From IMG/VR virus record IMGVR_UViG_3300000904_000003, positions 1 to 37,967 of that record: a stretch of 37,967 bases of DNA; one strand, 5' to 3'. Of this stretch, positions 7,776-34,155 are shown one piece after another. The DNA is from a virus. The position numbers and the translations under genes are program-made. The notes beneath the pieces were generated by a model, which was not told the origin of the DNA, did no database searches, and saw only the letters and a list, made by a program, of their open reading frames with translations. How positions within the stretch are numbered: position 1 is the first letter of the stretch; every line of letters begins with the position of its first letter.

Positions 7776-7788
7776 GGGAGGGCCTTTC

Positions 7789-9986: not shown

Positions 9987-9996
9987 AGGGGGAGGG

Positions 9997-10900: not shown

Positions 10901-10904
10901 CAGT

Positions 10905-16546: not shown

Positions 16547-16555
16547 AGTCTCTCC

Positions 16556-17173: not shown

Positions 17174-17182
17174 CGGCGTCTC

Positions 17183-17446: not shown

Positions 17447-17457
17447 CGCATCCTCCT

Positions 17458-17937: not shown

Positions 17938-17954
17938 GGCCGTACCTCGTTCTT

Positions 17955-20900: not shown

Positions 20901-21242
20901 TCCATCCACTCCGTCGTACAGCACGCGAATCGCTTCCACACTGTTGCGCAGCGTCTTCCATGGGTAGTAGCTCACGCACCCCGGAAAGGTCTCCCCATTG
21001 AAGACGATCGAGCCGGGCGCGCGCTTGTCGGTCAGGTCCACGCTGATCTCGCGGTTGGTGCCATCCAGCATCGAATCGAAGCGGCTACCGGAGTAGAACT
21101 TCGCAGCGAGGTAGGGCACGGCAGCATCCCGGTACGGGCTGCGCTGGGTCCATAGCCCGGTCATCTGGCGGGCACCCATGCTCAGAGCGGCGTACTTCGT
21201 CGGGTTGCTTACGGCCCCGGCTGCTGGTATCGGTCCTGCCAT
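17955..21242 (-). CDS. Tail-tube / nozzle candidate (1095 aa)
   Basis: The largest gene of the window. The N-terminal 120 residues (ALSMGARQMTGLWTQRSPYR, then DSMLDGTNREISVDLTDKR) resemble the start of podovirus tail nozzle or stabilisation proteins, which begin with a conserved helix and a beta domain. The rest is a long beta-rich protein with repeated segments such as WVDGGLTW-like KDGGLTWYNLG, TDGGLTWICI and SGQQWKCYG, hinting at duplicated beta domains. The final 150 residues contain a separate domain with Asp/Lys-rich loops. It follows the 235-residue candidate adaptor at 21243 by zero bases. Likely counterpart: T7 gp12. No hydrolase motif is seen. Confidence 0.6.
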   Translation of the reverse strand: MAGPIPAAGAVSNPTKYAALSMGARQMTGLWTQRSPYRDAAVPYLAAKFYSGSRFDSMLDGTNREISVDLTDKRAPGSIVFNGETFPGCVSYYPWKTLRNSVEAIRVLYDGVDGTLYDATPGQKTALFTKSAGAGANRMLGLPNAQFYVGNGVDQKKWLFPGGWQANKIVTPGTLINQGAEPGTLFMALGGITVPIVATAVSGSGASWQHLVYVNPAQVPLKFANLVGVEMTFSGLTTDTELNGRTLVVSKVLSTTLGIFQVNFTSGTVQDYTPDTGSATTGNGTTGGSSPTFVTTRLNVIADSGQQWKCYGPAVQNTQLTAPLVPPTLTPVSGRFWQPNTAFPQYTSILDSNGNIEVVASITGTNRSGPVYPQWTVAPAAAQLVANSLTGTPTPLANTFGGIYQNTSANVALHSGFGNIIDGSKIAWFKLLIGPTNPPTNNTWGTTFTATDKAGSDSNGQIGFNFSVPPGWFYELQCGGDVSTTPGYWDSTPLSPVATGVSTPGGANAVTKDGGLTWYNLGQPGVWQADASNAGVTGSCVIDTNNNLQWLFNGAGGTSGTTEPTWGTTLGASVTDGGLTWICISTGGSGVALTYQTLQYSYSLHGVDGSLSTAAPVAIVYGGVLGTTPAVLNPTLMVTATSAGMFSDTQIDQVWIWRTAQGEPILVLEDQIPADGLTNSFSYGEAGVADTSILGLAALNATIPAPINGTNSPPTPTSLPMCFAFQRVWWADGNLVRYSGGPDTLSANGNTTQPPLNEIPLLGMVYDIVPVTVQDGGLIVFTSSGIQIILGSGTTSDPFYATSYYNNVNVGGYNCVTLQGTTMFVLEVNLKLSSIAIQYPFNPNTGYTEIGFPIGDQLRKVTTGGINAKLYTSATAYLSWNDESTDENALYVADGAVGWFRMSSVSPPESGLMWHPHRSIVGGTSAVQAVETSPGQTQLLIGPPAGTPGPILCRDDSGEVYSDNGVGYPSWDVKGVNQLCTTGQYAETVHVSTKSMPVGKRPIISVLLGEIKPSTKRPYRALKLDDKSNDPARTPKSESVFSDRYVLKQSGINTLSDSLLTKFDYGTQTVADELLDWGIYAREHDEREEQVASAK

Positions 21243-21950
21243 CTATCGCGCCCTTCCCCCGCCGCCGCTCTTGGCCATGTCCTGGCTGCGCTGCACCGTG
21301 CGCGTCGTATTCATAAACTGGTTGTAGAACATGTCTTTCGCTTGGGCATCGAGGCCGTCCTGGGTGGCGAGACACTGTGCGATCCACTCCGAACGCCAGA
21401 TAGAGAAGCGTGAGTCGTTCACCAGTAGAGCGCCCTCGCTCAGCATGCCCTTATTGAATAAGTAACCGAAGTAGTCGCTTAATGGTGTGAACGTTTGGGC
21501 GGGGCTTGTGATCAGCGGCGCGGCATTCTGGATATCGAGGAATGCGGTGTAGTCTCCATCGGGCACAGAGTTAACGCGGAAAGTGATGTTGCCCTGGTTG
21601 TCGTCGTACTGCGGCGCGATCAGCGTGGGCGTCCTCTGAAAGCTCACCTTGGCCAGCGCGGTCGATCCGTTCAATTCGAGGATGTCGCCGCTGGAGTCGG
21701 ACAGCCATTGCGTCTCGATAAATCCCATCCCCGGCACGGATTGGACGTAGTCGGTGCCTCCCGCCGTGGTGATGGGGAAGCTGAAATTAGTGCGGTTCTG
21801 CCGCCAGCAGAAAGGCGCTCCCAGCATCGTGCCCAGCACACTGTTCGCCATGGTCACGCCGGGTTCCATGTTGTTTACGTTCAGGCGCTGGTTATCGATC
21901 AGCGACTGCACATAGGTCATCGAGGCCTGAATGCTTAGCGTGATGCCCAT
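21243..21950 (-). CDS. Tail adaptor / tail-tube A candidate (235 aa)
   Basis: The ATG at 21950 forms a TGATG overlap with the previous stop after GGGTGGAAC. A GTG nine bases upstream is less likely. The N-terminal helix (TYVQSLIDNQRLNVNNMEPG) is followed by a beta domain (FSFPITTAGGTDYVQSVPGM) and a C-terminal helical segment (AQCLATQDGLDAQAKDMFYN). Size and position directly before the 1095-residue gene match the adaptor or tail tubular A protein of podoviruses (T7 gp11, 196 aa). The sequence motif is not diagnostic. Confidence 0.55.
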   Translation of the reverse strand: MGITLSIQASMTYVQSLIDNQRLNVNNMEPGVTMANSVLGTMLGAPFCWRQNRTNFSFPITTAGGTDYVQSVPGMGFIETQWLSDSSGDILELNGSTALAKVSFQRTPTLIAPQYDDNQGNITFRVNSVPDGDYTAFLDIQNAAPLITSPAQTFTPLSDYFGYLFNKGMLSEGALLVNDSRFSIWRSEWIAQCLATQDGLDAQAKDMFYNQFMNTTRTVQRSQDMAKSGGGGRAR

Positions 21951-22957
21951 CAGTTCCACCCATACGGGTTATCTGCCGTGCGTGGCACATTCGAGCCCCA
22001 CCTCGGCTCGACGACGCTTGACGCCGGCAGTAGCGCGTACACGTTCAGCTCGCGGTCGCCCTGCTTCATGGGTTCTTTCATCCATGCAGGCTCGCCGGTC
22101 TGGGGATTTCGTTCCGTCAGGACCTCGCCGCGCTTTACATCGTTCGGATTTGGGCTGTTCAGCAGACACTGCGCTTGCAGGCCGCGAAAGAAAAACCGGC
22201 TAAAGCTGTCGGGGATCGGATTGAGAAGCTGTTGCATGGTGGCGAAGCGCGGCGGGTCGATCTGGTAGTAGGGGCGGATCTCGAGCGTCGGCCCCGCGGC
22301 TGATGGCAGCCGGTCGATGCGGAAGCCCTGGGAGGTGGGGCTTACGCACGTCCACGTCACACTGCCGTCTTCCACCGTCTCCCCCTCTTCCGCGCCTGCA
22401 GCCAGTTCCGGAGCGGTGCTTCCGGTGGTGCCGAATCCAGTGACGATCAGGATGTTTCCGTTCACATCCCGCATATTGAGGATGGGGTTCTGGCCGCCGG
22501 GTGCGTTCGCGCCCAGTAGCGGATAGATGGTTTTGCCTGCGCCCGGCCAGACCGCGATATGCAGCTCGTTGTTGTACATCCAGCACAAGTTTTCCGGCCA
22601 CCACCGGCTCACGTTGGTACGGCTCAGACCCCGCCGCCACTTGATGTTGGACATCGTCGGCGGGATGTAGGTGTTGTTTACGTCGATCACGTCACCGTCT
22701 TCGCCCCAGCCGATCGGCCCGGCCACCTGGGCGAGCTGGGGATAGTCCTGCTGGAAGCTGTTGGTGTAGAACGGTGCGGCATAGGCCCGATTCCACTTCT
22801 GGTTGTAGCGTTCGCAGACGATATCCGCCATCACTTCGTTCGCGCACTCCAGCGCAAGCTGGTCGCCATAGCCGCTGGGGCCTCCCCTGGGATCGGGGAT
22901 TCCCTTGGCGGCGATGACATTGAAGACGTTGCTCAGCTTGATGGTGGAGTTACCCAC
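21950..22957 (-). CDS. Head-tail structural candidate (335 aa), GTG start
   Basis: The GTG at 22957 is three bases after the preceding TAA. The N-terminus (KLSNVFNVIAAKGIPDPRGG) and the following helix contain a conserved-looking YGDQLALECANEVMADIV segment. The centre holds beta strands with a Gly/Thr/Glu-rich loop (EEGETVEDGSVTWTCVSPTS) that echoes the DGGLTW units of the 1095-residue protein. Position between the capsid region and the tail-tube genes suggests a connector or neck protein. The family is not recognised. Confidence 0.55.
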   Translation of the reverse strand: MGNSTIKLSNVFNVIAAKGIPDPRGGPSGYGDQLALECANEVMADIVCERYNQKWNRAYAAPFYTNSFQQDYPQLAQVAGPIGWGEDGDVIDVNNTYIPPTMSNIKWRRGLSRTNVSRWWPENLCWMYNNELHIAVWPGAGKTIYPLLGANAPGGQNPILNMRDVNGNILIVTGFGTTGSTAPELAAGAEEGETVEDGSVTWTCVSPTSQGFRIDRLPSAAGPTLEIRPYYQIDPPRFATMQQLLNPIPDSFSRFFFRGLQAQCLLNSPNPNDVKRGEVLTERNPQTGEPAWMKEPMKQGDRELNVYALLPASSVVEPRWGSNVPRTADNPYGWN

Positions 22958-22960
22958 GTC

Positions 22961-23188
22961 TTAGACCTCGTCGCCTTCGTCCGCTTTGCGATCGAGATCC
23001 ACGTGGATACCGTGTGTCCGCAACTTGGCGATAAGAGTGGCGAGATCCTTTCGAACCTCGGCCAGCTTCTTCTTATACGGGTCAGGTGTGGCGCTCTTGT
23101 CCGGATCTGGGTGGACCTGGTGTGTCGTCGTCGTCTCTTTTCCTGCAGATCCGCGCGCTGATGTTGCTTTTGTCTGCTTCGCCATCAT
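22961..23188 (-). CDS. Small charged hypothetical protein (75 aa)
   Basis: The gene begins with two ATGs in tandem behind AAAGGAGGC, and either could be used. The N-terminal half is Lys/Thr-rich and disordered (KQTKATSARGSAGKETTTTH); the second half is a charged helix (YKKKLAEVRKDLATLIAKLR) ending acidic. It could be a small virion or assembly protein. No family is recognised. Confidence 0.55.
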   Translation of the reverse strand: MMAKQTKATSARGSAGKETTTTHQVHPDPDKSATPDPYKKKLAEVRKDLATLIAKLRTHGIHVDLDRKADEGDEV

Positions 23189-23196
23189 GCCTCCTT

Positions 23197-23841
23197 TTAG
23201 GCTTCGTACATCACAGTTGCCGAACGCAGTTGCGCGCTCGGGATGGCTGCGCTGGCCGCGATGGTCACGCCCAGCACAGCCGCCGCAGTCAGATTAACAG
23301 CCGCCGATACTGCGATATTCGTATCGAGGTAGGTTACGGCGACGGCGGCGGCGACGGTGCCGATGTTCGCGTCCACCCTTCCATGCGATTCAATGGTCGC
23401 GGTCGCCCCAAGCGTCACCACCGTCAGTTCGAATTCGAAGTGAACGGGAAGGTTGGCGCTGGCTGCGGTGTTGGTTGCCGCCGTGGTGATGGTGCAGAGC
23501 GTCACACCGCCCAGCGTCAGCGCAAAGCTGATTGTCGCCACGTTCGCCGCCGTGGTCGAGTAGATCAGAACTCCCTTCACTCGGAGCTTGCGTCCGGTGA
23601 CGTTCAACGCTCCGGAGCCAAAGGTAAATGCCAGGAGACCTTGCGCTGTCGTGATTGCCGTGGCAACTGGCTGCGCGGGCAGCACGAGGGGCGCTCCCAT
23701 TGCAGCCATCAGCTTGCGGCCGTTGGCGCTTCCGCTCGAATACATTACTCCATTGGTCTGGTCGAGCACGATGGCTTGCTGGTCGAAGGAGTTTACTCCT
23801 CTGGCACTCGGTGGTCCGTAGGTTACGCGATCTGCACCCAT
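23197..23841 (-). CDS. Decoration-like or head structural protein (214 aa)
   Basis: The ATG follows GAAGGAAACA. The protein is a beta-rich, Ala/Thr/Val-rich sequence with a regular strand pattern (ALNVTGRKLRVKGVLIYSTT; HFEFELTVVTLGATATIES) and almost no charged helix. The composition is that of a jelly-roll or beta-sandwich capsid decoration protein. It resembles in style the 209-residue protein encoded at 31777. Its place two genes after the capsid gene fits. No signal peptide or catalytic motif is present. Confidence 0.55.
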   Translation of the reverse strand: MGADRVTYGPPSARGVNSFDQQAIVLDQTNGVMYSSGSANGRKLMAAMGAPLVLPAQPVATAITTAQGLLAFTFGSGALNVTGRKLRVKGVLIYSTTAANVATISFALTLGGVTLCTITTAATNTAASANLPVHFEFELTVVTLGATATIESHGRVDANIGTVAAAVAVTYLDTNIAVSAAVNLTAAAVLGVTIAASAAIPSAQLRSATVMYEA

Positions 23842-23922
23842 TGTTTCCTTCTCTCTGCCCCGCTCGCGCGGCGCGAATCATATACGAAATAAACATCAAA
23901 CCATGTCGAAAAACCGGAAAGT

Positions 23923-24594
23923 TTATCCTGCAGGCTGCGGATAGAAGTCGCTCGGCCGACGCCGAAATACCGGCATCCCTTTGTGGTCCTTTACCTCGAA
24001 GGTGTTGCCGCAATCCATCGTGCTCGAGTACTCGTCCGACTTCGACTCCTCGCTCTTCTCCAGCAACACTTCGAAGGCTTCGGTATCCGCTTGCCACTTC
24101 GCGACGCGCTTTTTGGCCTGGGCTTCGGTCTCCATCTTGCGAGTTCGGAAGTCGGTCTGCGGCTCGGGATTCCGGTCATAGGGATGCGGGCTGAAGACGG
24201 CCAGACGGCAGATCGCGCAGTGAATCAGGACAGTGAAGCCGTCCATCATCCGAATCTTCTTCAGCGTGGTGTCGCCCTTGCCCTTGTAGATGTTCTTGGG
24301 GCTGGCTCCCTGTTTGTGGGCGCATTTCCTCGAAATCTGCCAGCGTCCGCGCATCTTGCTGGCGAGTTCACTCTGACGCTGGGCGTTCTGACTGGACTTG
24401 GATTTCTCCTGCGCCTCGAACTTTTCGATCTCGCGCTGGGCGAGCTTCATGTTCATCTGCGCCGTCTTGAGCTGGACCTCTTCAAGCTGCTGCTGCATCG
24501 TTTTTTCTGCCATACCATCCTCCTCGATCGGTGCGGAAGACACGCTCCGCAGAGCACCGTTGTCCACAACGCTTTTTGTTGATTTTCTAGCCAT
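23923..24594 (-). CDS. Coiled-coil and cysteine protein next to the capsid gene (223 aa)
   Basis: The ATG lies 11 bases after a tandem pair of 11-bp repeats that each contain AAGG. Residues 28-85 form a Gln/Glu/Lys-rich coiled coil (QQLEEVQLKTAQMNMKLAQR). The C-terminal half holds Cys/His groups (CAHK, then HCAIC, then DCGNTF) that may bind zinc, and ends in a proline-rich tail. A scaffold-like or head-assembly role is possible. No family is recognised. Confidence 0.55.
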   Translation of the reverse strand: MARKSTKSVVDNGALRSVSSAPIEEDGMAEKTMQQQLEEVQLKTAQMNMKLAQREIEKFEAQEKSKSSQNAQRQSELASKMRGRWQISRKCAHKQGASPKNIYKGKGDTTLKKIRMMDGFTVLIHCAICRLAVFSPHPYDRNPEPQTDFRTRKMETEAQAKKRVAKWQADTEAFEVLLEKSEESKSDEYSSTMDCGNTFEVKDHKGMPVFRRRPSDFYPQPAG

Positions 24595-24616
24595 ATTTAA
24601 GCCTTATTTAAGCCTT
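24595..24616. repeat. Tandem 11-bp repeat in front of the 223-aa gene
   Basis: Two abutting copies of ATTTAAGCCTT (24595-24605 and 24606-24616); on the coding strand this is AAGGCTTAAAT twice, directly before the ATG. Each copy carries an AAGG that can act as a ribosome site. Whether the duplication tunes translation is not known. Confidence 0.55.
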
Positions 24617-24624
24617 CACCTTCA

Positions 24625-24652
24625 CCCCGGATCCTCCACTGGCCATCCGGGG
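24625..24652. terminator. Stem-loop after the capsid gene
   Basis: CCCCGGAT (24625-24632) and ATCCGGGG (24645-24652) form an 8-bp GC-rich stem with a 12-base loop in the 82-bp gap behind the capsid stop. There is no T run on the - strand, so it is more likely a partial terminator or an mRNA-stabilising hairpin behind a strongly expressed gene than a full stop. Confidence 0.4.
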
Positions 24653-24676
24653 CTGCCGCTGGGCATTGGTTTAGGT

Positions 24677-25939
24677 TTATGTCGTCATCGGAACGGCGAT
24701 CGCGATCCGCATGCGGCTGGTTACGTCGGGCGGTGGCCCGATGCCAAGCACACAGTTGTATCCTGTCCCGGCCTGGATGAGCTGGTTGGCGTCATAGGCG
24801 GTACGGGCTGTGAACTTCTCAGCCCACAGATCGAGATTCTGCCATTTGTGGCCGGGCTTGGTCAGTTTTCCGTGAGGAAACTGAATGAACACCATGCCAT
24901 CCATGCCCGCGAGATAGGTGCTGATCCCGGTCTCGCCGGAACCTTGCCAGTTTGCGGTCTGGGTCTGGTTGGTGCTCTTTCTCCAATGGCAGCCGAACAG
25001 CTCGAGCGTCCTTACCGGAGCCTCGCCGTCGTCACCGTCCAACGGTTCGAGCTTCAGTTGGCCCGCGTCGGTGTGCTTCCAGATATCGACGATGGAGTTG
25101 TTGGAGTTGTCGATCATCATGTCCGAGACGAAGAAGGGATGAATGCTCCCGTTGTAGAATCCATCCTTCATCTGCGGCACCTCGGCACCTTCGAGCGAAC
25201 CCGGCATCTGCTCGATGATGTTTTTGGTGAACGCATACGGAGCCGTGGTCGCGTCCTGGAGGGACGTTCGCGTATCCATCGTGCGCAGAAAATCCATCTG
25301 GAACATGATCAGATCGTCGATCGTCAGCGCGAGCTGGTAGGCCATGATGCGCCTGTTCTCGACCAGATCGTCCGAGATCGAAGTCAGTGCAGCGAAGTCG
25401 GAGATGGTGTTGAAGTTCGCCCATTGCCCGACGACGATGTCCTTGAAGTTGACGTTGATCTGCTCCGGTGGCCCAGGCGTGCCCTCGGTCTGCTCGGTGG
25501 TGTCCGGCCCCAGCGGAATCGACATGAAGTTGCGCCAGGTCTGTCCGCTCTTCTCGGGCAGATCCATGTGGGTACACATCAGCAGCTTGTTCGTTTTGGC
25601 GTACAGCCACTGCATGAAGACGCGGTTGTAATAGACCGTCAGGCGCGCCTGCGGCATGTTGGCGGAGGTCTGGGCGGCTGCCGTTGCTCCGCCTTCGGCC
25701 ACCACGGGCGCGTGCGATGCCTGGGCTGCCATCGCCATCGCCGTGGATCCGGTCGCCATCAGCGCCGCCGCACATGCGATCAGCAGCTGCAGGAAAGGCC
25801 ACAGAATGTATTTAAACAAAAATGCAGCGATCCCGTCCTGAATCCCGGTTCGCACGCCTATTGGGCGGAACTGCCTGCTCGTTCCGCTCACCCATTGCTT
25901 CTTTCGCTTCCACATCCGGTACGTCATTGTCTGACGCAT
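24677..25939 (-). CDS. Major capsid protein, N4-gp56-like
   Basis: Residues from about 95 on match the N4-gp56 capsid pattern (HK97 fold): TVYYNRVFMQWLYAKTNKLL, a KSGQTWRNFMSIPLGPDTTE loop with an LTEG-like EQTEGTPGPPE, then VGQWANFNTISDFAALTSIS and a helix ending in TIDDLI. The full frame is 420 residues. GAGGGAGCGCAAC before the ATG at 25939 supports that start, yet it adds a basic N-terminus and a strongly hydrophobic stretch (AAFLFKYILWPFLQLLIACA, about 38-57) not expected in a coat protein. A start at the ATG at 25759 would give a usual 360 residues but has a poor ribosome site. The extension may be a cleaved delta-like domain. Confidence 0.8.
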   Translation of the reverse strand: MRQTMTYRMWKRKKQWVSGTSRQFRPIGVRTGIQDGIAAFLFKYILWPFLQLLIACAAALMATGSTAMAMAAQASHAPVVAEGGATAAAQTSANMPQARLTVYYNRVFMQWLYAKTNKLLMCTHMDLPEKSGQTWRNFMSIPLGPDTTEQTEGTPGPPEQINVNFKDIVVGQWANFNTISDFAALTSISDDLVENRRIMAYQLALTIDDLIMFQMDFLRTMDTRTSLQDATTAPYAFTKNIIEQMPGSLEGAEVPQMKDGFYNGSIHPFFVSDMMIDNSNNSIVDIWKHTDAGQLKLEPLDGDDGEAPVRTLELFGCHWRKSTNQTQTANWQGSGETGISTYLAGMDGMVFIQFPHGKLTKPGHKWQNLDLWAEKFTARTAYDANQLIQAGTGYNCVLGIGPPPDVTSRMRIAIAVPMTT

Positions 25940-25956
25940 GTTGCGCTCCCTCAGCG

Positions 25957-26778
25957 TCAGGCCGTAGCCTTCGCTGCCGGGTAGTAGAACTCACAGGCGT
26001 CTGCATAGTCCTTGTCACCGCTGCGAATTAACGCCTCGGCTTTGGTTAGGCTCATCCTGTCGATCTGCTCCCGTGTGTATTTGAGTGTCGTCCTTGTCTG
26101 GACGCTCTGGGGGGCGCGGAAGTTGGTGCTCCGCGTTCCTGTCCCACTGCGTCCGCCTCGGCTCGTCTCGACACGCTGGACCTGATTCTCGTCAGGAAAC
26201 GCTGTGACGTTCGGTACTACTTCACCGGGGTCTTCCACTAAATCCCCGGCTTCCAACATCTGGTGAAAGCATTGCGTCATCATCTCTTTCGAGATGAGGG
26301 CGACATCGCCATTCACCAGCTTTCCCAACTGGGTCGCCAACAGCAATCGATTCGGCCTGCAGTTGTAAAAATCTTGGGTCTCGCTCGCCCACTCGTCGGC
26401 CCGCGTCTTGAAGGCATCCATCGCCATCTGGCGAAGGTCCATGCCGGTGGCGTCCTGAACCAACCTAGTTACTGCGTCTGCTGATTTAGCCGGGTTCTGC
26501 AGGTCTGTCGTTGCCTGCATGGTCTCGTCGGCGGTCATACGCTTGCGGGGTGCGATGGGAGAGGGGGTCGCGGTGCTCTGCGGAGGAGCTTCGGCGCGTC
26601 GTGCCAGGGCACGCTGCGCGTGCATGTTGTTCAAGCCGATCTTGTCGTACACTTCCTCTTCGGTTTTTCCGTAGTAGTAGATCGGGTTGGTGCCGTCTTC
26701 CATATCCAGTACGCGGCAGAAAGTGCCCGGCTCGATCGGCTTACCGTTTGGGCGCGTTGTGACCCATTCCATCTTCAT
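25957..26778 (-). CDS. Scaffold-protein candidate (273 aa)
   Basis: The ATG overlaps the upstream TGA. The protein has a small N-terminal beta domain (GTFCRVLDMEDGTNPIYYYG), then a Pro/Ala-rich linker, a long helical middle (TMQATTDLQNPAKSADAVTR) and a basic, helical C-terminus (TREQIDRMSLTKAEALIRSG). A helical, flexible protein directly before the coat gene is the usual place of the internal scaffold. No protease or helicase motif is seen. Assignment is from position and composition only. Confidence 0.5.
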   Translation of the reverse strand: MKMEWVTTRPNGKPIEPGTFCRVLDMEDGTNPIYYYGKTEEEVYDKIGLNNMHAQRALARRAEAPPQSTATPSPIAPRKRMTADETMQATTDLQNPAKSADAVTRLVQDATGMDLRQMAMDAFKTRADEWASETQDFYNCRPNRLLLATQLGKLVNGDVALISKEMMTQCFHQMLEAGDLVEDPGEVVPNVTAFPDENQVQRVETSRGGRSGTGTRSTNFRAPQSVQTRTTLKYTREQIDRMSLTKAEALIRSGDKDYADACEFYYPAAKATA

Positions 26779-27176
26779 TGCTCGTTCTCCAGCTCTGCGA
26801 GTTCTGCTTTCACAACCACTTCCAGCTCCGCTACGGCGCGACGCAATATCTTCACATACGCCCAGGCGTTTGCGACTTCATCCCGGTTGGTCAGTGGGTC
26901 GTCTTCACTCAGAGTAATAGCACGTTTCTGATGAAAATGAATAGCTTTTTGGGCGATGCGGAGGTACAACTTCTGTCCCGGCATCTCCCAGAACTCCTTC
27001 AGGTCCAGCCGTTCCGGCCGTGTCAGTTCGCGTTCTGGATCGTCGTAGGCTCTGCGCTCCGCCGGCGCAGGCCTCGGCTTCGTCTCCGCGTCGCGTCCGT
27101 CGCGCACAGCGGCCAGCTCTGGGGTCAGAGGCTCGCCGCGCAAAAACTTCTCGTGTGCAGTTGGATCAAACGTCAT
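26775..27176 (-). CDS. Helical hypothetical protein (133 aa)
   Basis: The ATG at 27176 has GGAGG nine bases before it; an ATG 39 bases upstream only reads through the small upstream gene. The protein is charged, with a Pro/Ala/Arg-rich first third and two long helices (about 60-130), ending in VVVKAELAELENEQ. It may assist head assembly. No family is recognised. It overlaps the next gene by four bases. Confidence 0.55.
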   Translation of the reverse strand: MTFDPTAHEKFLRGEPLTPELAAVRDGRDAETKPRPAPAERRAYDDPERELTRPERLDLKEFWEMPGQKLYLRIAQKAIHFHQKRAITLSEDDPLTNRDEVANAWAYVKILRRAVAELEVVVKAELAELENEQ

Positions 27177-27252
27177 CGCCACTGTCCTCCGGTAACGCCG
27201 GCTGCCCAGCTTCAAGCTTCATCGGCTTTTCCTTCACCACTGGATGAATCAT
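27166..27252 (-). CDS. Microprotein between portal and helical protein (28 aa)
   Basis: A 28-codon frame starts at an ATG that overlaps the portal stop (ATGA) and ends 11 bases inside the next gene, filling a gap that is otherwise empty. The sequence is mixed and charged (VVKEKPMKLEAGQP), with an acidic tail. It could be a real microprotein or only a coupling leader that carries ribosomes to the next start. Confidence 0.4.
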   Translation of the reverse strand: MIHPVVKEKPMKLEAGQPALPEDSGDDV

Positions 27253-29477
27253 GCTCCGCCCCCCGGTACGCCATTCGCCAGCTCTCCCATATCCGTGTTG
27301 CGCTCTAAGCGGCCTTCGGCTTCCTCGAACTCCTGCGGACCTTCCAGCCGTTCCGCAGCCTTGTCCGCAGCGGCCTTGACCACGGCCAGCTGCGTATCGG
27401 CTTGCCCCTTGGCGTCGATGGCCTGCAGCTTGTTTTTTCCGCGTAGTGCTTCGATCGCCGCCGCGCTCTGGGTTCTCTGCGCAGCCGGGTTCGTCGCCTG
27501 TACCTGCTGCATCTCCTCCGGCGTCAGGTCCACGATGATGTCTTCCGCGCCCTGCAGCTCGCTCACGCGCATGAAGATCTTCTCAATTGACGAGAAGTTG
27601 ATCGTCTTTCCCTTCTGGTGCATAAATTCCATCAGTTGCGGCTGTTGCAGCAGCTGCAGCAGGAAGGGAATCAGTTGCTGGATCGAGGCCTTCGCCGCCA
27701 GCTTCTGGCCCGCGAGGATCTTGATGTTGAACTCCGCGTTGACCAACTTCTCCGGGTCGATCTTGCTGATGATCGCGTCGGCGTATTTCTTGCTGAGGAT
27801 TCTGCGGATCTCGGCGATCGGCATCTTCGTCTGCACGATCCACCACAGAAAGCGGTACCACCGCACCATCACGCCTTCGACGTTGGAGATTGGTTCGGAA
27901 AGAACTTCGTCCGCCTTGTTGCCCAACCGGTTTACGCCAGTGGCTGTCTTCAGCGCCGTCGCCCCAGGTCCGGGATTCCCCTGGGCTGTCGTGCTGTTGG
28001 CGCCTACCAGGTCCTCGCCGCCGCGATTCGCGATGTCGCTGAAGATCTGCATATTCGCGGGGTGAATCTCCGGGCGCTGGATGTACTGATAGGCCTTTCC
28101 TACATCGCCGCCCTTTGCACTCACGCCCCACAAAGTGCCCAGCCCCATAACCACATTCTGCGTCGGTTCGTTGCCGCCTTCGCTGTCATACAGCAGCGGC
28201 GGATCTCCCCAATAGCCGAGGAGTTGGAGCATTTTATTTAAAATTCCTTGGGACATGCGCTGATCGCCGCCGTTCAGCCGGCCGACGCCCATTCCGTAGC
28301 CGCTATTCTCGATGTCCCACCAGTTCGCAGCGACTCCCAGCGCGAACTCCTGCAGATCGTGCGCCCCTTTACGGATCGTCTTCCTTCGCCCCTGGTAGCA
28401 CAGCACCTCGATGATGTTCTCTTTGGTGGAGTACTTCAGGCGCATCAGCGGCCGCAGAGTCGGATCCGCGTTGGTCTGCTCGTGCTCGCCCGCCGCGTGG
28501 AAGACGACGGATGAGTTCGAATTCATGCTCTCGGAGGTAGTCGACGCCGGCGGTGCATCGCCCAACGGGTTCTCGAAAAAGAATTGCTTCAGATCCGCGT
28601 CGGAGGGAATGTCCTTGTAGCAGTTCATTCCGCGCAGCTGCTGCAGGTCCTGCAGCGTCAGGTAATCGACATCGATCTTTCCCTGCGCGCTCAGGTCCGG
28701 CCGATTCGGCGTGCGCCATCCGGGGTCGTAGAGCGTGGTTCCCAGCTTGCGGTACTCGAAATAGGGATAGGTCTCCGTCACGGTCTGGGGTACCGCTTCA
28801 AACTGGTCACTCTCCCAGGTGTTCACGATCGCCGGAGGCCCGACCGGCATCGGGATAGTCTGGGGCTGCTTCTTTCGTTTGCGCGTCGTGTATTTGCGGT
28901 CTCGCTCTTCGTACCCCATATCGGCGAGCCCGGTGCCCTGCAGCACTTGGCAGTTGATGAGCAGCCCCATGTTGTATTCAAAGTCGGCGCGTTCGCTCAG
29001 CGTGCTGAAGATCTCGGTGATGGCGTCGACGTAGAGCTGCTGGTCCTCATCATCGGCCAGCGGCCCCCGCGGCTCCAACAGAAACGGCGTCTGGTCGGCA
29101 AAGATGCCTCGTTTGATCTGTGTGGCCACGGTCTGCGAGTTCTTCGCCACATTGAACCGCGAGATCCGCGCCACCCCGCCGTTGGCTCCGATCCCGCCGC
29201 GATCGAAGTTTGGGCTTTGCTTCAGATAATCCGCAAGCTGCCACTCCGCAAGCCAGGCGTTCTCATCGAGCCATCCCGCCCACGCCTGGTAGTTCTGCCA
29301 CACCAGCGTCGCCGCTGCGTCGTCGTCGAAGACGGTCTCTGTCGCGCCGTCTTCGCCCAGCTCGGCCTGCGACTGCGCGATGCGCGGCGTCATCTCGTTT
29401 CCAAGCGGCATACCATCGCCACCTGGCCGCGCTGCTACATCGTCACCCTCACGCGGTATATCCAGTTCTTCAGCCAT
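27249..29477 (-). CDS. Portal protein
   Basis: The 742-residue product has the layout of podovirus portals of about 700-750 residues (P22 gp1 type). A disordered N-terminus is followed by a helical segment with aromatic residues (TLVWQNYQAWAGWLDENAWL) and KNSQTVATQIKRGIFA. Then come beta-rich wing segments and a long C-terminal helix (QAIDAKGQADTQLAVVKAAA) as in the barrel. GDPPLLYDSEGG, HPANMQIF and WIVQTKMPIAEIRRILSKKY fit the crown and clip region. The portal ring sits at one capsid vertex and passes DNA. It directly follows the terminase gene, apart from one small zinc gene. Confidence 0.75.
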   Translation of the reverse strand: MAEELDIPREGDDVAARPGGDGMPLGNEMTPRIAQSQAELGEDGATETVFDDDAAATLVWQNYQAWAGWLDENAWLAEWQLADYLKQSPNFDRGGIGANGGVARISRFNVAKNSQTVATQIKRGIFADQTPFLLEPRGPLADDEDQQLYVDAITEIFSTLSERADFEYNMGLLINCQVLQGTGLADMGYEERDRKYTTRKRKKQPQTIPMPVGPPAIVNTWESDQFEAVPQTVTETYPYFEYRKLGTTLYDPGWRTPNRPDLSAQGKIDVDYLTLQDLQQLRGMNCYKDIPSDADLKQFFFENPLGDAPPASTTSESMNSNSSVVFHAAGEHEQTNADPTLRPLMRLKYSTKENIIEVLCYQGRRKTIRKGAHDLQEFALGVAANWWDIENSGYGMGVGRLNGGDQRMSQGILNKMLQLLGYWGDPPLLYDSEGGNEPTQNVVMGLGTLWGVSAKGGDVGKAYQYIQRPEIHPANMQIFSDIANRGGEDLVGANSTTAQGNPGPGATALKTATGVNRLGNKADEVLSEPISNVEGVMVRWYRFLWWIVQTKMPIAEIRRILSKKYADAIISKIDPEKLVNAEFNIKILAGQKLAAKASIQQLIPFLLQLLQQPQLMEFMHQKGKTINFSSIEKIFMRVSELQGAEDIIVDLTPEEMQQVQATNPAAQRTQSAAAIEALRGKNKLQAIDAKGQADTQLAVVKAAADKAAERLEGPQEFEEAEGRLERNTDMGELANGVPGGGA

Positions 29478-29675
29478 CTCAGCTCTCTCCTCGCGCGGCC
29501 ATTAGCATTTGGTGGCAATAGTGATCGTGATCGCAATACACACATCGTCCGTTCCCACCTAGTTCCCAAGTGAGGCATGGCCCCATCATGTCCGTCCGTC
29601 GCACACAAACGCACCAATGAGCTGCCACGCGAGGGGTACTTGTCGTGTCGCACAGCTTCAGTTCTTCAGCCATCT
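29463..29675. repeat. 17-bp direct repeats bordering the small zinc gene
   Basis: CAGTTCTTCAGCCATCT occurs at 29463-29479 and at 29659-29675, 196 bp apart. Both copies cover the start codon and first codons (MAEEL) of the portal gene and of the 64-residue gene. Recombination between them would delete one copy plus the small gene and keep the portal start intact. Confidence 0.7.
29479..29673 (-). CDS. Small cysteine-rich protein (64 aa) between terminase and portal
   Basis: The ATG at 29673 has GGAGG five bases upstream and overlaps the terminase stop by 8 bases. Cysteines in CVCVRR, GPC, RCVYC and a final HYCHQM give a plausible zinc knuckle. The 17-bp segment around its start recurs exactly at the portal start (29463-29479), so the gene lies between two direct repeats and could have been inserted or deleted as a cassette. 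The role is unknown. Confidence 0.6.
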   Translation of the reverse strand: MAEELKLCDTTSTPRVAAHWCVCVRRTDMMGPCLTWELGGNGRCVYCDHDHYCHQMLMAARGES

Positions 29676-31366
29676 AAACCTCCAGGCATTGGTGGAAGGA
29701 AGCTATGTGTCGTCGTCTTCTGCATGGCCTGCAGGTGCGCCATCACCTTCCGCTTCTGAACTTCCTTGTCCACGATCGGCGTCCCTTGCAGGTTCAGCAG
29801 CCAGTTGATAGTGGCATCGTCCTGCCGGCTGCGCTGGTATTCGATCTCATCGTCCTCCAGTGAGGCGCGCATCTGTGACATTGGCACTAGGTTCCCCAGT
29901 GTCGATACACACTCGATGATGCCGTTCTCTTCGATCAGGCCGAAATGGACAAACTGCTTTTTGCACTCGGCCCCCTTGGTCATGCTCCGCGAGAAGATCA
30001 TCCGTCCCACCTTCAGCACCGGCTCCATCTGTTTGATCGAGTCGTTACGCAGATTTTCGTTGTCCTCCCAGTAGCTCCACTGGATGCGCAGGCTGACGTT
30101 GCGCCGTGCGGCCTCGTTGCGTACATGCGGCGTGAAGCCGTCACAGCCAGGCGTATTCAGAATCATCATGCCATCGGCCTGCAGCTCCTTGTGAATCCTC
30201 ACCATCCTCTCGGCCTGGTGGCTGGGCGTGCCGCCGATCTGCCAGCAGTCGATCACGTACACCTTGCCGTCGAGGATCCGCGCCGCCGCACCTTCCAGAT
30301 ACTTGCTCGTCGCCGGCTTGCTGCCGTGGGGCAACCGCCAGCACACAAACGTCTCCCCGCCATAGGGCGGGATGCGTTCGATGTTGGCCTCGCAGGTTCC
30401 GTACAGCTTGTCGTCGAATATCGAAGTGTGGCCACCCTGCGGATCGTTCTGCTGCTGGCACATGAACGTCTCGTAGTTTTCGATGAACATCGAGCGCAGC
30501 CGCTTATATTGCATGCCGGGCAGATCCGAAAAGGGCAAAATCACTTCGTCTTCGGGCGGGAACTCTCCCGGCAAAAGCCGCGAACCGTCTTTGCGCTGGA
30601 TGGAATGGCGAATGAGTACATCCCACTCTTCGGGGTCCATGTCGTTGAGCCGGACACCGTACAGGTCGAAGGGATGGTATCGGGTGCCTACGAGGTACAG
30701 ATAGCCACCCGGCACCAGCGTGTTTTTGTTGGTGTCGAACGTCTCGATGACACCTTGCCGTGCGTCTTGAGTGGCGCGGATGCCGCTGTTCTTGGTGGCC
30801 ACCATGTCATCACAGTTGAGTAGCCACGGATGCCATCCGGACTGTTCGGTCTGCGGCGACGTGTAGGCGATCGTGTCGTCCAGTAGATCCATGTTGTGCG
30901 AAGGAGTATTCCACGTATCGTCAAAGCCGAACGGTTGTTTATTGACCACCAGCTCGGGGAAACAGAGCTGAAAACGGGTGGGTTTCGCGTACTTTGGGCA
31001 ATAGAAGTAGTTCCCGATGCCCTTCGAGATCTTCTTTGCGAGTGGCTGTGTGGCCGTCTGATTGAGCAGCGTGATTTCTTTTGGAAACGCCGTGATCCAC
31101 TGCACCTTATCCACACGGTTCCATGTGGTTTTGTAGGTGAAGCGGGGATCGAAGTGCATCAGCTTTTTTTTCGGGCGCTGCTCCTCGATCGAGAGCAGCG
31201 GATTCTTCCTGCCGTAGAGTTCGGCGACGGGCTGGTGGAGGACCGGGTGGAAGTCCCAGCCCAACATCCTGCCTGCGAAGAATGGGTCGGTAATGAAGCG
31301 ATGCCGCAAATCGTCGCGATAAGCGGCATCCTGGACGATGCGTTCGTGATCGTCTGGCTCGATCAT
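29666..31366 (-). CDS. Terminase large subunit
   Basis: This 566-residue protein has the order of a phage packaging motor. FDPRFTYKTT (72-81) stands for the usual PRG-x-x-KST Walker A-like loop. WLLNCDDMV (181-189) is the Walker B, with paired Asp 186-187. VGTRYHPFDLYG (226-237) is a coupling motif of the GTR-x-x-x-x-D-x-YG type, and FMCQQQNDP (301-309) is the common QxxNDP element. A nuclease half begins near 337. The expected first nuclease Asp is not obvious, since VCWRLPHG is found where an A-x-D-P-type strand would be expected, although VIDCW and CDGF supply later acids. The enzyme cuts and pumps DNA through the portal. Confidence 0.8.
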   Translation of the reverse strand: MIEPDDHERIVQDAAYRDDLRHRFITDPFFAGRMLGWDFHPVLHQPVAELYGRKNPLLSIEEQRPKKKLMHFDPRFTYKTTWNRVDKVQWITAFPKEITLLNQTATQPLAKKISKGIGNYFYCPKYAKPTRFQLCFPELVVNKQPFGFDDTWNTPSHNMDLLDDTIAYTSPQTEQSGWHPWLLNCDDMVATKNSGIRATQDARQGVIETFDTNKNTLVPGGYLYLVGTRYHPFDLYGVRLNDMDPEEWDVLIRHSIQRKDGSRLLPGEFPPEDEVILPFSDLPGMQYKRLRSMFIENYETFMCQQQNDPQGGHTSIFDDKLYGTCEANIERIPPYGGETFVCWRLPHGSKPATSKYLEGAAARILDGKVYVIDCWQIGGTPSHQAERMVRIHKELQADGMMILNTPGCDGFTPHVRNEAARRNVSLRIQWSYWEDNENLRNDSIKQMEPVLKVGRMIFSRSMTKGAECKKQFVHFGLIEENGIIECVSTLGNLVPMSQMRASLEDDEIEYQRSRQDDATINWLLNLQGTPIVDKEVQKRKVMAHLQAMQKTTTHSFLPPMPGGLDG

Positions 31367-31369
31367 TAC

Positions 31370-31675
31370 TTACATCCCCGGTGGTGGCGCTGCTGCTGCA
31401 TCCGGTGCCGCACCGCCGGGTGCTGCCCCCGCATCCGGTGCGGCTGCTGCGTCAGGCGGGGGTTCATTCATGCCCATTTGTTCCCCTGCGTGTTGGCCGG
31501 CTTCGTCGGCGGTCATACTGACAGCGGTGTTTTTCCGCTCCGGTTCGCTATCTGTGTCGCCCCGCTTCTTTTTGTACACCTGGTGATGAACATAGTGGCC
31601 GTCTTCTGTTTCTTCGATCGTGTGCTTATGAAGATGTTTTCTCTTCGGCTTGTCTTCTTTTTTCTCTTCCGCCAT
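31370..31675 (-). CDS. Small acidic/alanine-rich protein before terminase (101 aa)
   Basis: The ATG at 31675 follows AGGAGAGGGACG; a longer frame upstream runs into the non-coding gap and is rejected. The N-terminal half is highly charged with His/Lys clusters (KEDKPKRKHLHKHTIEE); the C-terminal half is Ala/Pro/Asp-rich and disordered. Its place directly before the large terminase is where the small subunit often lies, but the sequence has no recognisable DNA-binding helix-turn-helix, so the small-subunit role is only a possibility. Confidence 0.5.
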   Translation of the reverse strand: MAEEKKEDKPKRKHLHKHTIEETEDGHYVHHQVYKKKRGDTDSEPERKNTAVSMTADEAGQHAGEQMGMNEPPPDAAAAPDAGAAPGGAAPDAAAAPPPGM

Positions 31676-31725
31676 CGTCCCTCTCCTGAAGGTGCTGGCG
31701 GGGATTATCCCCCCGCCCTCTGGAA

Positions 31726-31742
31726 ACATGCTTTAAGCATGT
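31726..31742. promoter_or_regulatory. Perfect 17-bp palindrome in the gap before the terminase genes
   Basis: ACATGCTT, one T, then AAGCATGT (31726-31742), in the 101-bp gap between the decoration-like gene and the 101-residue gene. There is no T run, so it is not a simple terminator; it is a possible protein-binding site or processing hairpin. The rest of the gap holds no further signal that I recognise. Confidence 0.4.
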
Positions 31743-31776
31743 GGGTCCCGGCTTTACGGCCCGCGCAGTGATAGGT

Positions 31777-32406
31777 CTAGCCGACGCTGAACTTCTGGAT
31801 ATTCACCGTCGTCAGCGCTCCGCCCGTGGCTCCGCTCGAAGCGAAGGTGAGGACGAAGCTCGGTAGGTTCGCCATGGTCGGGGGATTCGCGGAGGGGTTG
31901 CCCTGGTTGAGGAATCCGGTTGGGAAGTTCGAAAGGGTCACTGCCGCCACGATGATTTTGTTGACGTAGAAATCGATCTTTCCGACCAGTGCGCCACTCA
32001 CTGAATCTAAGATGAGCCCCGCATGTGCCCACCATGCTGCGATCGCGGTGTTCTGTGTGATTGCGCCGCTCGAACCTAGAAGGACATTGCTGGCGATCGT
32101 CTCGCTGGTGCCCTCGTAGAGGTCGATGGTGACAGTTCCCGCCGCCCTGGTCTGGATGTAGCCGGAGGCGTAGAGGTCGAAGACGGTCTGCTCGATCTGG
32201 GTGGCGGGCGGGATCGTGATTGTAAGGGGAACGGCTGCATTCGGCGCGCTGGGTGCAATCGTCTGGGTGGCCGCTCCCAGGGTGAACTGCACCGGCAATA
32301 CGCCGGCCAGCGTCTGGGTCTGGGTCGCCTGCTGGTTAAGAGGAATCTGGTTTGCTACGCTGGCGGCTCCCGAGTTCGGGCCATAGGGACGGTCGGACAA
32401 AGCCAT
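31777..32406 (-). CDS. Decoration-like structural protein (209 aa)
   Basis: The ATG has AAGGAGAG five bases upstream, one of the best ribosome sites in the window, so the protein may be made in quantity. The sequence is beta-rich with few charged residues (VPLTITIPPATQIEQTVFDL; AGTVTIDLYEGTSETIASNV), like a jelly-roll decoration or fibre-head domain. It resembles in composition the protein encoded at 23197. It is placed before the terminase rather than after the capsid, which is unusual for a decoration protein. The identity remains uncertain. Confidence 0.5.
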   Translation of the reverse strand: MALSDRPYGPNSGAASVANQIPLNQQATQTQTLAGVLPVQFTLGAATQTIAPSAPNAAVPLTITIPPATQIEQTVFDLYASGYIQTRAAGTVTIDLYEGTSETIASNVLLGSSGAITQNTAIAAWWAHAGLILDSVSGALVGKIDFYVNKIIVAAVTLSNFPTGFLNQGNPSANPPTMANLPSFVLTFASSGATGGALTTVNIQKFSVG

Positions 32407-32480
32407 ACTTGCTCTCCTTAGGACGATGCATTTTGTTGCGCATTCTGGGCAAGTCTACTCTTGACAGCGTTTTCGTCCAA

Positions 32481-32678
32481 TCAAATCGTTTTTTTGGGCA
32501 TTCTTCGCAGAGCCTTGCGGTTGACGATGGCGGTTACGCCATCCTCGAAGCGGATCTGCACGTCGCAGATCGTGTTTCTCACGCCAATGATCTCGCACCG
32601 CTGTCCCTTGCGGCCTTCCACGCGATCCCAGGTGAGGACGTGGGGGAAGGGTTCGGCGTCAACTGGTAGGGGTTTCAT
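32481..32678 (-). CDS. Small SH3-like hypothetical protein (65 aa)
   Basis: The ATG at 32678 follows GGAGGTCAAGG, inside the end of the gene before it. The product reads as one small beta barrel: TWDRVEGRKGQRCEIIG, then VQIRFEDGVTAIVNRKALRR, where a KGQRC strand and an (F/V)EDG turn recall small KOW/SH3-like phage proteins. It is basic at the C-terminus (MPKKTI). A nucleic-acid-binding role is possible but not shown. Confidence 0.6.
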   Translation of the reverse strand: MKPLPVDAEPFPHVLTWDRVEGRKGQRCEIIGVRNTICDVQIRFEDGVTAIVNRKALRRMPKKTI

Positions 32679-32859
32679 CCTTGACCTCCAGCTCGCGCAC
32701 ATCCCCTATAAGTCGTAGAAGCTCACCCGTCGTCGTCGTCACATCGTTGGCCACGTCGACGAACTCCTGCACGTCGTCGCTTCGTACATAGGCGATCAAG
32801 ATGTCCACCAGCGCCATCTGCTGGCTCCTGGTCAATCGCAAAACCACATTAACACTCAT
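32659..32859 (-). CDS. Small helical hypothetical protein (66 aa)
   Basis: The ATG at 32859 follows GAGGTGAGAG and overlaps the end of the previous gene by 11 bases; its own end overlaps the next gene by 20. Residues 8-28 (RLTRSQQMALVDILIAYVRS) and 30-55 form two helices. The protein may be a small regulator or structural helper. No family is recognised. Confidence 0.55.
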   Translation of the reverse strand: MSVNVVLRLTRSQQMALVDILIAYVRSDDVQEFVDVANDVTTTTGELLRLIGDVRELEVKDETPTS

Positions 32860-33025
32860 CTCTCACCTCTGCCTCTTCTACGCGCTCATCTTCGAAACAA
32901 AACATGGTATTGCCTCCATCAGTGTGTCTAACGAGGAGTTGCGCGGGCTCTTCGCAAAATGGCGGCAGTATCCATTCCTCGGCTGGACGCCCGCAGTGCT
33001 TACATGGTCCTGATCTCAGGTTCAT
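32849..33025 (-). CDS. Zinc-binding microprotein (58 aa)
   Basis: This frame fills the 160-bp space between two clear genes. Its ATG overlaps the upstream stop (ATGA) and its stop lies inside the next start region. The product has C8-x2-C11 (PCKHCGRP), C24, C43 and C58, giving a plausible zinc knuckle, and an acidic C-terminus (CFEDERVEEAEVRDEC). Coupling on both sides and the CxxC motif support a real gene. Confidence 0.6.
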   Translation of the reverse strand: MNLRSGPCKHCGRPAEEWILPPFCEEPAQLLVRHTDGGNTMFCFEDERVEEAEVRDEC

Positions 33026-33351
33026 CTATTTTTCCAGAATTCCGCGAATGCTTCGGGTGAGGGTATACGACCGCTGGCTTTCCATTCCTCGTAGGCCTCG
33101 GGATAGAGAAGGTCGGGGCGCTTGCGCTCCATGTTGCGAAACCGCTTGTACGCCTCGCGCTCTTCTGGGGTGCTAGGCCTGCGGCAGTAGCGGCATTCTT
33201 TTTTGTCGACGATGGCGGTGAGCTGGTTGCGCCGCAGTTTGCTATGTTCCTTGCTGCATGTGATCGCACCGCGCATGATGCGATCTTTCGGTACTTCCCC
33301 GCCGCAGATGATGCAAAGCGTTTTCACGTCATCGTAAGTTTTGCGTGACAT
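33022..33351 (-). CDS. Zinc-ribbon protein (109 aa)
   Basis: Cysteines C13-x2-C16 (CIICGG), C32 with H36 (TCSKEHS), and C53-x2-C56 (CRYCRRP) form one and a half zinc modules in the first 60 residues, followed by a charged helix rich in Arg, Glu and aromatic residues (EEREAYKRFRNMERKRPDLL). The first group, with its RGAITCSKEHSKLRR, resembles DNA- or RNA-binding ribbons found near phage recombination genes. It overlaps the RusA gene by 23 bases. The function is unknown. Confidence 0.65.
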   Translation of the reverse strand: MSRKTYDDVKTLCIICGGEVPKDRIMRGAITCSKEHSKLRRNQLTAIVDKKECRYCRRPSTPEEREAYKRFRNMERKRPDLLYPEAYEEWKASGRIPSPEAFAEFWKNR

Positions 33352-33820
33352 TTTTTCCCTCTCTCTTTCGGAAGTCCTGCATGCGCTCGGCCAGGGTGCG
33401 CCGTTTCTGGCATACGGAAGCGCAGATAATCGTGCGCGGATTCTCTCTATCGCTGTCCTCTACTTCGAGGTGCCAGGTTCTCACGCGGGCGTCGGAGTGG
33501 ATCACTCCCGCGTAGACCAGGCTGTCGGCGATGCACTTCCAGTAGTTATCTCCGTCTCCCCGATTGCCTTGTCCTAAAAATACGGTCGCCGTCAGCGCGT
33601 AGCGGATCTTGTTTTTTTCTGTCGTCGTGAACGGCGCTAGAGATTGTCCGCGCGCAAGGATCGCAACCATATCTCGGAAGGCCTTCGCTTCGGGGGTGAG
33701 CGCAAAGCTAAGCCTGGGGCCGTTACTTGTGCGCAGAGTGATCGGTTTTTTGTAATGGTTAACAGATGGCCCACAGAACGGAATCTCTAATATGATGGAT
33801 TTGACACATCCCTTTTTCAT
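33329..33820 (-). CDS. rusA: RusA-family Holliday-junction resolvase
   Basis: The pattern PFCGPSVNHYKKP near the N-terminus, then RGDGDNYWKCIADSLVYAGV and IHSDARVRTW, matches RusA: paired acids D89 and D91 in the D-x-DN-x-x-K element, K95, D99 and D110. RusA dimers cut four-way junctions and help resolve branched phage DNA before packaging. Possible starts are the ATGs at 33820 and 33826. I chose 33820 because it lies six bases behind a TATTAT element and would be read from a leaderless transcript. It opens the long late operon, next to zinc-ribbon genes. Confidence 0.8.
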   Translation of the reverse strand: MKKGCVKSIILEIPFCGPSVNHYKKPITLRTSNGPRLSFALTPEAKAFRDMVAILARGQSLAPFTTTEKNKIRYALTATVFLGQGNRGDGDNYWKCIADSLVYAGVIHSDARVRTWHLEVEDSDRENPRTIICASVCQKRRTLAERMQDFRKREGKNVTQNLR

Positions 33821-33838
33821 GCCCATATAATACAGGTA
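33801..33838. promoter_or_regulatory. Divergent promoter sharing one symmetric -10
   Basis: On the + strand TTGACA (33801-33806) and TATAAT (33826-33831, spacer 19) end six bases before the ATG at 33838. On the - strand TATTAT (33832-33827) ends six bases before the ATG of rusA at 33820, but no good -35 is seen. The two -10s overlap in ATATAATA. Both transcripts would start at or near the start codon, so both could be leaderless. Neither gene has a Shine-Dalgarno. Confidence 0.5.
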
Positions 33839-34155
33839 TGACAACGAGGAAAAAAGTTAAAAGGAAAAAAATGGCAAAGGCCGGTAGACCGAAAAGGGTA
33901 GGCCCTGAATATATTGAGCTTGGGTTGAGAGCAACAAAGTCAGAGTACGACTTGATACAGGCGGCGACAGCTAGGAACGCTCTGCGGCGTCACGTCATTC
34001 CATCGCGCAATAACTTCTGTCTTCGTGCAGCCTTGGTTGCTGCGAAGAAAGAATTTGGCATCCCGGAAGATGTTCTCGAAATTGGATGGCAAAGATGGAT
34101 TGCTGAATCGGCAAAGCATAGCGGCAACCTGGAAGACGACGATCTGGACGACTAG
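33838..34155 (+). CDS. Ribbon-helix-helix candidate regulator (105 aa)
   Basis: The protein has a very basic N-terminus (KKVKRKKMAKAGRPKR), then IELGLRATKSEYDLIQAATA and, after a turn, NNFCLRAALVAAKKEFG. The strand, helix, turn and helix order is that of a MetJ/Arc/CopG-type ribbon-helix-helix. The tail is acidic (GNLEDDDLDD). It is divergent from the late operon, has a leaderless-type start like phage repressors such as lambda cI, and is therefore a good candidate for the switch regulator. Its DNA site is not established. It ends four bases into the opposite-strand gene at 34152. Confidence 0.55.
   Translation: MTTRKKVKRKKMAKAGRPKRVGPEYIELGLRATKSEYDLIQAATARNALRRHVIPSRNNFCLRAALVAAKKEFGIPEDVLEIGWQRWIAESAKHSGNLEDDDLDD

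Follow-up and report, generated by a model that had tools for sequence, protein, structure and literature searches.

In the window analysed here, a virus record of 37,967 bp (G000 where a handle is needed), a small regulator gene and rusA diverge from a common start region, and the conserved feature of that region, judged from the sequences, is a dyad of the form CATnCC...GGnATG centred on a -10 element that can be read on either strand. The explanation that we favour, and to which we give about an even chance, is a bidirectional promoter overlaid by an operator, the operator probably being bound by the divergently encoded regulator with repression of the regulator gene, of rusA and the late genes, and of an ATPase operon. 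This suggests that one small switch serves several gene sets in a family of phage-plasmids. The features of the region are as follows.

33801..33806, plus strand: -35 element TTGACA of the regulator promoter, followed by a 19-nt spacer, read from the sequence
33815..33820, no strand: TTTCAT block within the spacer, six of six columns invariant across seven records
33818..33840, no strand: imperfect 23-bp dyad CATGCCCATATAATACAGGTATG, candidate operator, centred on the -10 and ending in the two ATGs
33826..33831, plus strand: -10 element TATAAT toward the regulator, TA(T/C)AAT in seven of seven records
33827..33832, minus strand: -10-like TATTAT for the rusA/late gene direction (TATTGT in two of seven records)
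33838..34155, plus strand: small basic regulator candidate of 105 amino acids, with its ATG at the predicted +1, RHH/TacA1-like at low confidence
33859..33873, plus strand: internal AAAAGGA and in-frame ATG 33871, a possible second, SD-led start
33329..33820, minus strand: rusA (type A), with its ATG at the predicted minus-strand +1 and no SD
6453..33820, minus strand: late gene array headed by rusA, with matches to terminase, head-tail adaptor/portal and major head proteins

A sequence-only reading of the same DNA had claimed that TATAAT on the plus strand and TATTAT on the minus strand (33832-33827) overlap and that each ends six bases from its ATG (33838 and 33820, respectively), and direct reading confirmed this. 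TATAAT occurs a single time in the 38-kb window with both strands counted, and the composite CAT-N6-ATAATA-N5-ATG was likewise found once in the window and in none of 100 dinucleotide shuffles. Symmetry by itself is cheap, since the minus-strand TATTAT amounts to TATAAT plus one A. According to excerpts of the published work on bidirectional promoters, the optimal step from a -10 to the transcription start is seven bases (PMC12825309), and such a step from each -10 puts the predicted starts on the A's of both ATGs (33838 on plus, 33820 on minus), 18 bp apart. The same excerpts give distances of 7-25 bp between opposite-strand starts, with 18 as the commonest value (PMC12825309, PMC10268837), and describe as the signature of these promoters a reciprocal coincidence of -7T and -11A together with a T at -18 (PMC10268837). 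The corresponding plus-strand bases are present in the window as T at 33831, A at 33827 and T at 33820. The symmetric shared -10 of the sequence-only reading, with a predicted start distance equal to the commonest published layout, thus stood, and it is kept in all seven related records.

No SD match of at least 3 nt to AAGGAGGT was found at 3-12 nt before ATG 33838 or ATG 33820, and the AGGT that directly adjoins ATG 33838 is too close to act as a ribosome site. That neither gene has a ribosome site was accordingly correct for both first ATGs, but not for the regulator's in-frame ATG 33871 with its AAGGA; the description of the plus-strand gene as simply lacking a ribosome site was rejected on account of this internal AAGGA-N5-ATG.

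Six related records of 32-41 kb from IMG/VR (G001-G006) were obtained by protein similarity searches, and their regulators are 46-68% identical to that of the window. Two loci (L002, L008) were first found with a DNA pattern fixing the -35, the -10, AGG and ATG; the conservation count is not owed to this pattern, because the regulator protein alone recovered all six contigs, and G004 and G006 depart from its TATAAT. Four of seven stretches (L003, L005, L006, L007) were excluded because the gene they carry is unrelated and just its promoter sequence is similar, and the loci up to L051, besides cuts of the window itself (L012, L016, L037), were repeat cuts of the six contigs, which were counted once each. 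The phage collection gave no match by DNA or by regulator protein, the genome contigs no relatives by regulator or neighbour alignments, and the viral contigs no match to the rusA protein. The window itself had no Rfam match and no tRNA.

All seven records keep TTGACA-N19-TA(T/C)AAT and an ATG exactly at the plus-strand +1, and all seven keep ATGAAA at the minus-strand +1, six bases past the -10. TTGACAC is invariant throughout, and none of the seven spacer bases between it and TTTCAT forms an invariant column. In four of the seven records the ATG of the TTTCAT block is not the start of rusA, so that rusA coding does not account for the conservation there.

The dyad has 8 of 11 symmetric arm pairs in the window and 8-10 of 11 across the seven records, and at least 8 of 11 are reached at 65 of 37,945 window positions. 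In the numbering of the regulator promoter its CC occupies -16/-15 and its GG -3/-2, with 11 bp between them. The sequence-only reading had done without an operator. It overlooked the symmetry that makes each ATG one arm of a dyad, and with it the return of the dyad core at a second promoter, which points to an operator. The features of this second site are the following.

6411..6433, no strand: dyad core repeated (CGTCCCTATATTGTCTTGGTACG on the minus strand), with the ATPase operon -10 at its centre
6420..6448, minus strand: sigma-70-like promoter TTGACA-N17-TATTGT of the ATPase operon, 10 of 12 matches
4983..6383, minus strand: SMC/RecF-like AAA ATPase, with an AAGGAG-led start downstream of +1

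A matrix built from the seven regulator sites was run in full, without its -10 columns, and without the outer CAT/ATG as well. The ATPase site at 6411-6433 ranked second of 37,945 window positions with the full matrix or without the -10 columns; when the outer CAT/ATG was dropped too, 6411 ranked seventh and 33818 itself second. In the reciprocal comparison, a matrix made from the ATPase sites placed 33818 second. The ATPase promoter is also the only other one in the window by a pattern of one-mismatch TTGACA, 15-20 nt and a -10-like element. The ATPase gene is present in all seven records and is preceded in all seven by CC-N11-GG in the same register on the -10. The copy in G001, found by a pattern search of that record, is a perfect palindrome with 11-bp arms, and the G001 ATPase has its own AAGGAG-led start downstream of that promoter. 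By eye, the triplet at the predicted ATPase +1 is ACG in five of the seven records and ATG in G001 and G003; as the ATPase gene starts downstream and not on these triplets, symmetric arms persist here without serving as a gene start. In G001 and G003 (L029 932-954, L035 1450-1472) a stop follows one codon after this ATG, which gives the predicted mRNA a minimal ORF at its 5' end, one that is not the ATPase.

The ATPase copies score 35.8, 25.2, 20.1, 13.0, 13.0 and 12.9 with the full matrix (12.9 in the window), that of G002 not exceeding the reporting score of 8, and their dyads are imperfect, with 5-11 of 11 symmetric pairs. In the unrelated contig L003 a chance match reached 10.3, close to the window's 12.9, so the argument for an operator rests on position and recurrence and not on one score. 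A third matrix match at 37564 (8.1), near the repeats before repA, was taken as chance; in the compared stretches of the relatives nothing corresponding to it scored above 8. Among 19 distant ATPase relatives (L052-L070, some of them shortened) no site was found in the stretches covered, the best scores being 5.9 with the regulator matrix and 5.4 with the ATPase matrix.

From these arrangements we infer that both directions are active promoters. A sigma-70-type promoter, TTGACA-N19-TATAAT, would fire rightward into the small basic regulator gene, with translation probably starting on its AUG, and polymerase could bind the same near-symmetric -10 in reverse, which would send transcription from a start 18 bp distant into rusA and the late genes. 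The regulator most likely binds the CC/GG dyad over the shared -10, and when bound would repress three units at once: the regulator gene itself, transcription toward rusA and the late genes, and the ATPase operon. Operators that cover a -10 usually serve repression; we propose repression here as well, in preference to activation.

The regulator is the natural candidate for the binder because it is small, basic, adjacent and carries a weak TacA1/DUF1778 signal, though another factor may be what recognises the CC/GG. Four of the seven regulators matched the TacA1 profile at E values up to 1 (best 0.0047), the window regulator not being among them, and the latter had no Pfam family match either. 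A profile search against PDB gave a DUF1778 chain at E 0.13 and a CopG chain at E 0.18, in a ranking where ribosomal proteins come first (E 0.094) and fourth (0.25). Two structure models were poor (mean pLDDT 62.7 and 64.8), and the latter shows four helices, among them 34-51 and 62-73, and no strand. A PDB fold search with the regulator returned nothing at E 0.001, and searches of NCBIfam and PHROGs with all seven regulators gave no credible family. We therefore refer to the regulator as a ribbon-helix-helix candidate. As regards a toxin-antitoxin system of the TacA type, no acetyltransferase family was found among ten window proteins scanned, and the next gene on the far side of the regulator (34152-34715) had no family match.

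Where the regulator starts was judged from the stretch between its two ATGs, which measures 33, 36 or 45 nt in the seven records and is always open, in frame and rich in lysine and arginine. Differences within it, by codon position, number 0, 8 and 8 among G000-G002 and 4, 8 and 14 among G004-G006, so that third positions are favoured in the second group and not clearly in the first. The N-terminal extension thus looks translated. As the +1 ATG is kept in all seven records and the extension varies only by whole codons, a leaderless regulator mRNA is plausible, with translation starting on the +1 AUG; in all seven the -10 lies six bases before the conserved start and there is no SD. The first ATG is favoured, and the second is a possible extra start. 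The most serious alternative, still an unlikely one in our judgement, is that the regulator is an ordinary leadered gene, transcribed from about 33838 and translated at ATG 33871, with the upstream ATG as just a part of the operator. An AAGGA does lie 5 nt upstream of ATG 33871 in the window, an AAGG is found there in five of the seven records, and mRNAs with a 5'-AUG plus an SD are known from E. coli according to an excerpt of PMC4965119. This arrangement is at odds with the absence of the SD from G004 and G006, with extensions that are in frame at all three lengths, and with the third-position preference in one of the two groups. The internal ATG as the sole true start was rejected, the SD being lost in two of seven records with the frame of the extension kept.

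On the opposite side, the gene that had been called rusA does match RusA (PF05866, 25.3 bits against a cut-off of 22.8), and to speak of a 27-kb late operon was reasonable in so far as a minus-strand array with structural genes runs from 33820 to 6453; that it forms a single transcript is only presumed. The rusA genes are of two types. Type A (G000, G002, G006) starts exactly at the minus-strand +1 without an SD. In type B (G001, G003, G004, G005) the minus-strand +1 ATG is out of frame in G003, G004 and G005 and is cut off by a stop in G001, and the rusA starts were placed 54, 53, 68 and 67 nt further on, respectively. A stop just upstream forces this start in G001 and G004; in G003 and G005 it was chosen by homology in a frame that is open further upstream, G003 offering a possible alternative start at 11 nt and G005 two, at 13 and 31 nt. 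Type-B rusA is preceded by an SD match of 4 nt at spacing 12 in G001 and at spacing 8 in G005; in G003 and G004 the match is just 3 nt. A leaderless rusA, predicted in three of seven records only, was rejected as a conserved feature. The same applies to the earlier notion of two leaderless genes: for the regulator it is plausible, in that the ATG is kept in all seven records, though with an SD-led internal start in five, and for rusA it fails outside the three type-A records, so that two leaderless genes, as judged from these comparisons, are not what is conserved.

With the assumed rusA starts, the type-B +1 ATG opens a leader frame of 15-31 codons. In G003 and G004 the stop of this frame and the ATG of rusA share an exact ATGA; in G001 the stop comes 6 nt short of that ATG, and in G005 the frame continues beyond it. 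At least two exact ATGA overlaps among four were seen in about 3% of shuffles. A more far-reaching version of our reading would pack the operator, the two -10s, the two transcription starts and the two start codons into one 23-bp element, the ATGs being operator arms, with the opposite AUG still translated leaderless where rusA has been replaced (the leader ORFs being ATGA-coupled to the new rusA) and the second operator copy tying in the ATPase operon. We hold this version only tentatively and think it unlikely as a whole, having slightly lowered our estimate of it because the rusA start was set by homology only in two of the four type-B records.

Types A and B of rusA are about 40% identical and have been exchanged behind the same promoter (window 33329-33820; L001, L002, L008, L020, L021, L023). 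Type-B records also keep an apparent relic of the type-A N terminus, as seen for instance in G004 MKLHGVKSIILE compared with G006 MKFQSVKSIILE.

Perhaps only the rightward promoter works, the minus-strand TATTAT being a by-product of symmetry, rusA and the late genes being transcribed from another promoter and the dyad still serving as operator; this we regard as unlikely. The perfect TTGACA/TATAAT is on the plus strand only, no minus-strand -35 was seen by eye, and phage late promoters need not resemble sigma-70 sites. Yet the minus-strand ATGAAA is kept at +1 in all seven records even where it does not start rusA, and the SD-less type-A rusA of the window has no starts before its conserved domain other than 33844, 33826 and 33820. 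Moreover, no other sigma-70-like promoter was found in 16001-34500 at the scan thresholds; the scan listed none at all in this interval because its spacer range was 16-18 nt and the plus-strand promoter has 19.

Quite unlikely, in our view, is the mechanism put forward by the sequence-only reading itself, namely a pair of leaderless genes with promoters in competition for polymerase at a single -10, this competition being the switch, with no operator. The exact six-base distances, the conservation of both +1 ATGs in seven of seven records and the lack of an SD at either agree with it, and the ATGA overlaps in two of four type-B records hint at translation of the +1 AUG in those records as well. 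It is opposed by the three-of-seven count for rusA starts at the minus-strand +1, by the reappearance of the dyad core at the ATPase promoter, where the gene begins downstream of +1, and by the missing -35 of the minus direction. In all five bidirectional promoters for which the excerpt of PMC12825309 reports tests, basal activity was too low for polymerase competition, which leaves competition unsupported as the main switch. Finally, a MerR-type activated promoter with a coincidental dyad, which the 19-nt spacer kept in all seven records and the action of SoxR at a bidirectional promoter (excerpt of PMC12825309) might recall, is very improbable, given that the dyad lies on the -10 and not in the spacer, that the ATPase promoter of the window has a 17-nt spacer, and that no MerR family was found among ten proteins scanned, several of which had no family match at all.

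The preferred reading, a bidirectional promoter under an operator, has precedents in part. The promoters with a shared symmetric -10 described by Warman et al. (PMC12825309, PMC10268837) have, in the excerpts, the same 18-bp distance, the same -7T/-11A and the T at -18; starts were mapped there and are predicted here, and in the present case both predicted +1s are ATGs inside a dyad whose core recurs elsewhere. At the E. coli acrA/acrR bidirectional promoter the autorepressor AcrR represses both directions (excerpt of PMC12825309); as here, the regulator gene lies on one side and the target operon on the other, but that regulator is of the TetR family and chromosomal, and the likeness is one of gene layout, not of site geometry. 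In the cI/cro region of the phage-plasmid PY54, RACE mapping gave leaderless mRNAs for both genes, according to an excerpt of PMC4488713. This is likewise a divergent regulator region on a plasmid prophage, but leaderlessness is only predicted here, and the OR3 operator and cro promoter of PY54 are up to 40 bp apart, whereas in the present region a single -10 serves both sides, with the rusA/late gene set as partner. Compared with the E. coli mRNAs that have a 5'-terminal AUG and a later SD start (excerpt of PMC4965119), the regulator mRNA would carry a second, SD-led AUG 33 nt later, with the differences that both AUGs share one frame and that the SD is missing in two of seven records.

Small RHH repressors act at back-to-back phage promoters in the immI region of P22 (Arc/Mnt), where the operator position appears to differ from the one proposed here; the present regulator is no more than a candidate for that family. 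Bidirectional promoters, divergent leaderless phage regulators as in PY54, and 5'-AUG mRNAs with a later SD are each already known singly. Searches of open-licence papers listed no case of these three fused into one 23-bp element with a core recurring at another promoter, a negative that carries little weight. According to an excerpt of PMC12825309, symmetric -10s shared by two directions are common and their control has hardly been studied, and the worked examples in the excerpts are from E. coli and Salmonella (PMC12825309, PMC10268837). The present region offers a compact, conserved case in uncultivated phage-plasmids in which promoter, start codons and probable operator coincide, and its natural variants (two rusA types, presence or absence of the internal ribosome site, TATAAT or TACAAT) make the roles of symmetry, leaderless start and operator separable.

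We class the record as a phage-plasmid because RepA_C and ParA are found beside phage structural genes with terminase, head-tail adaptor/portal and head matches. In parA (34931-35668, plus strand) the conserved start (MPIIxAIANQKGG) is at 34931 and not at the first in-frame ATG, 34889. A -10-like TACAGT stands exactly six bases before 34931 in the window, and by eye parA lacks a preceding SD in all seven records, which makes it another gene that may be leaderless. Repeated motifs of the TACGGTAGAG/CTCTACCGTA type before parA (34830-34925), found also in several relatives, are a candidate partition operator or centromere. The small protein encoded after ParA (35578-35967, plus strand) has a sub-threshold RHH_1 match (E 0.011) and is a probable partition partner. 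Upstream of repA, at about 37340-37570 on the minus strand, several repeats of the ggggggaccgatgcagcc type resemble the iterons of plasmid origins. RepA itself (36069-37079, minus strand) has its first-ranked plasmid match in Granulicella tundricola, a member of the Acidobacteriota, with 40% identity over 88%, which provides one hint as to the host.
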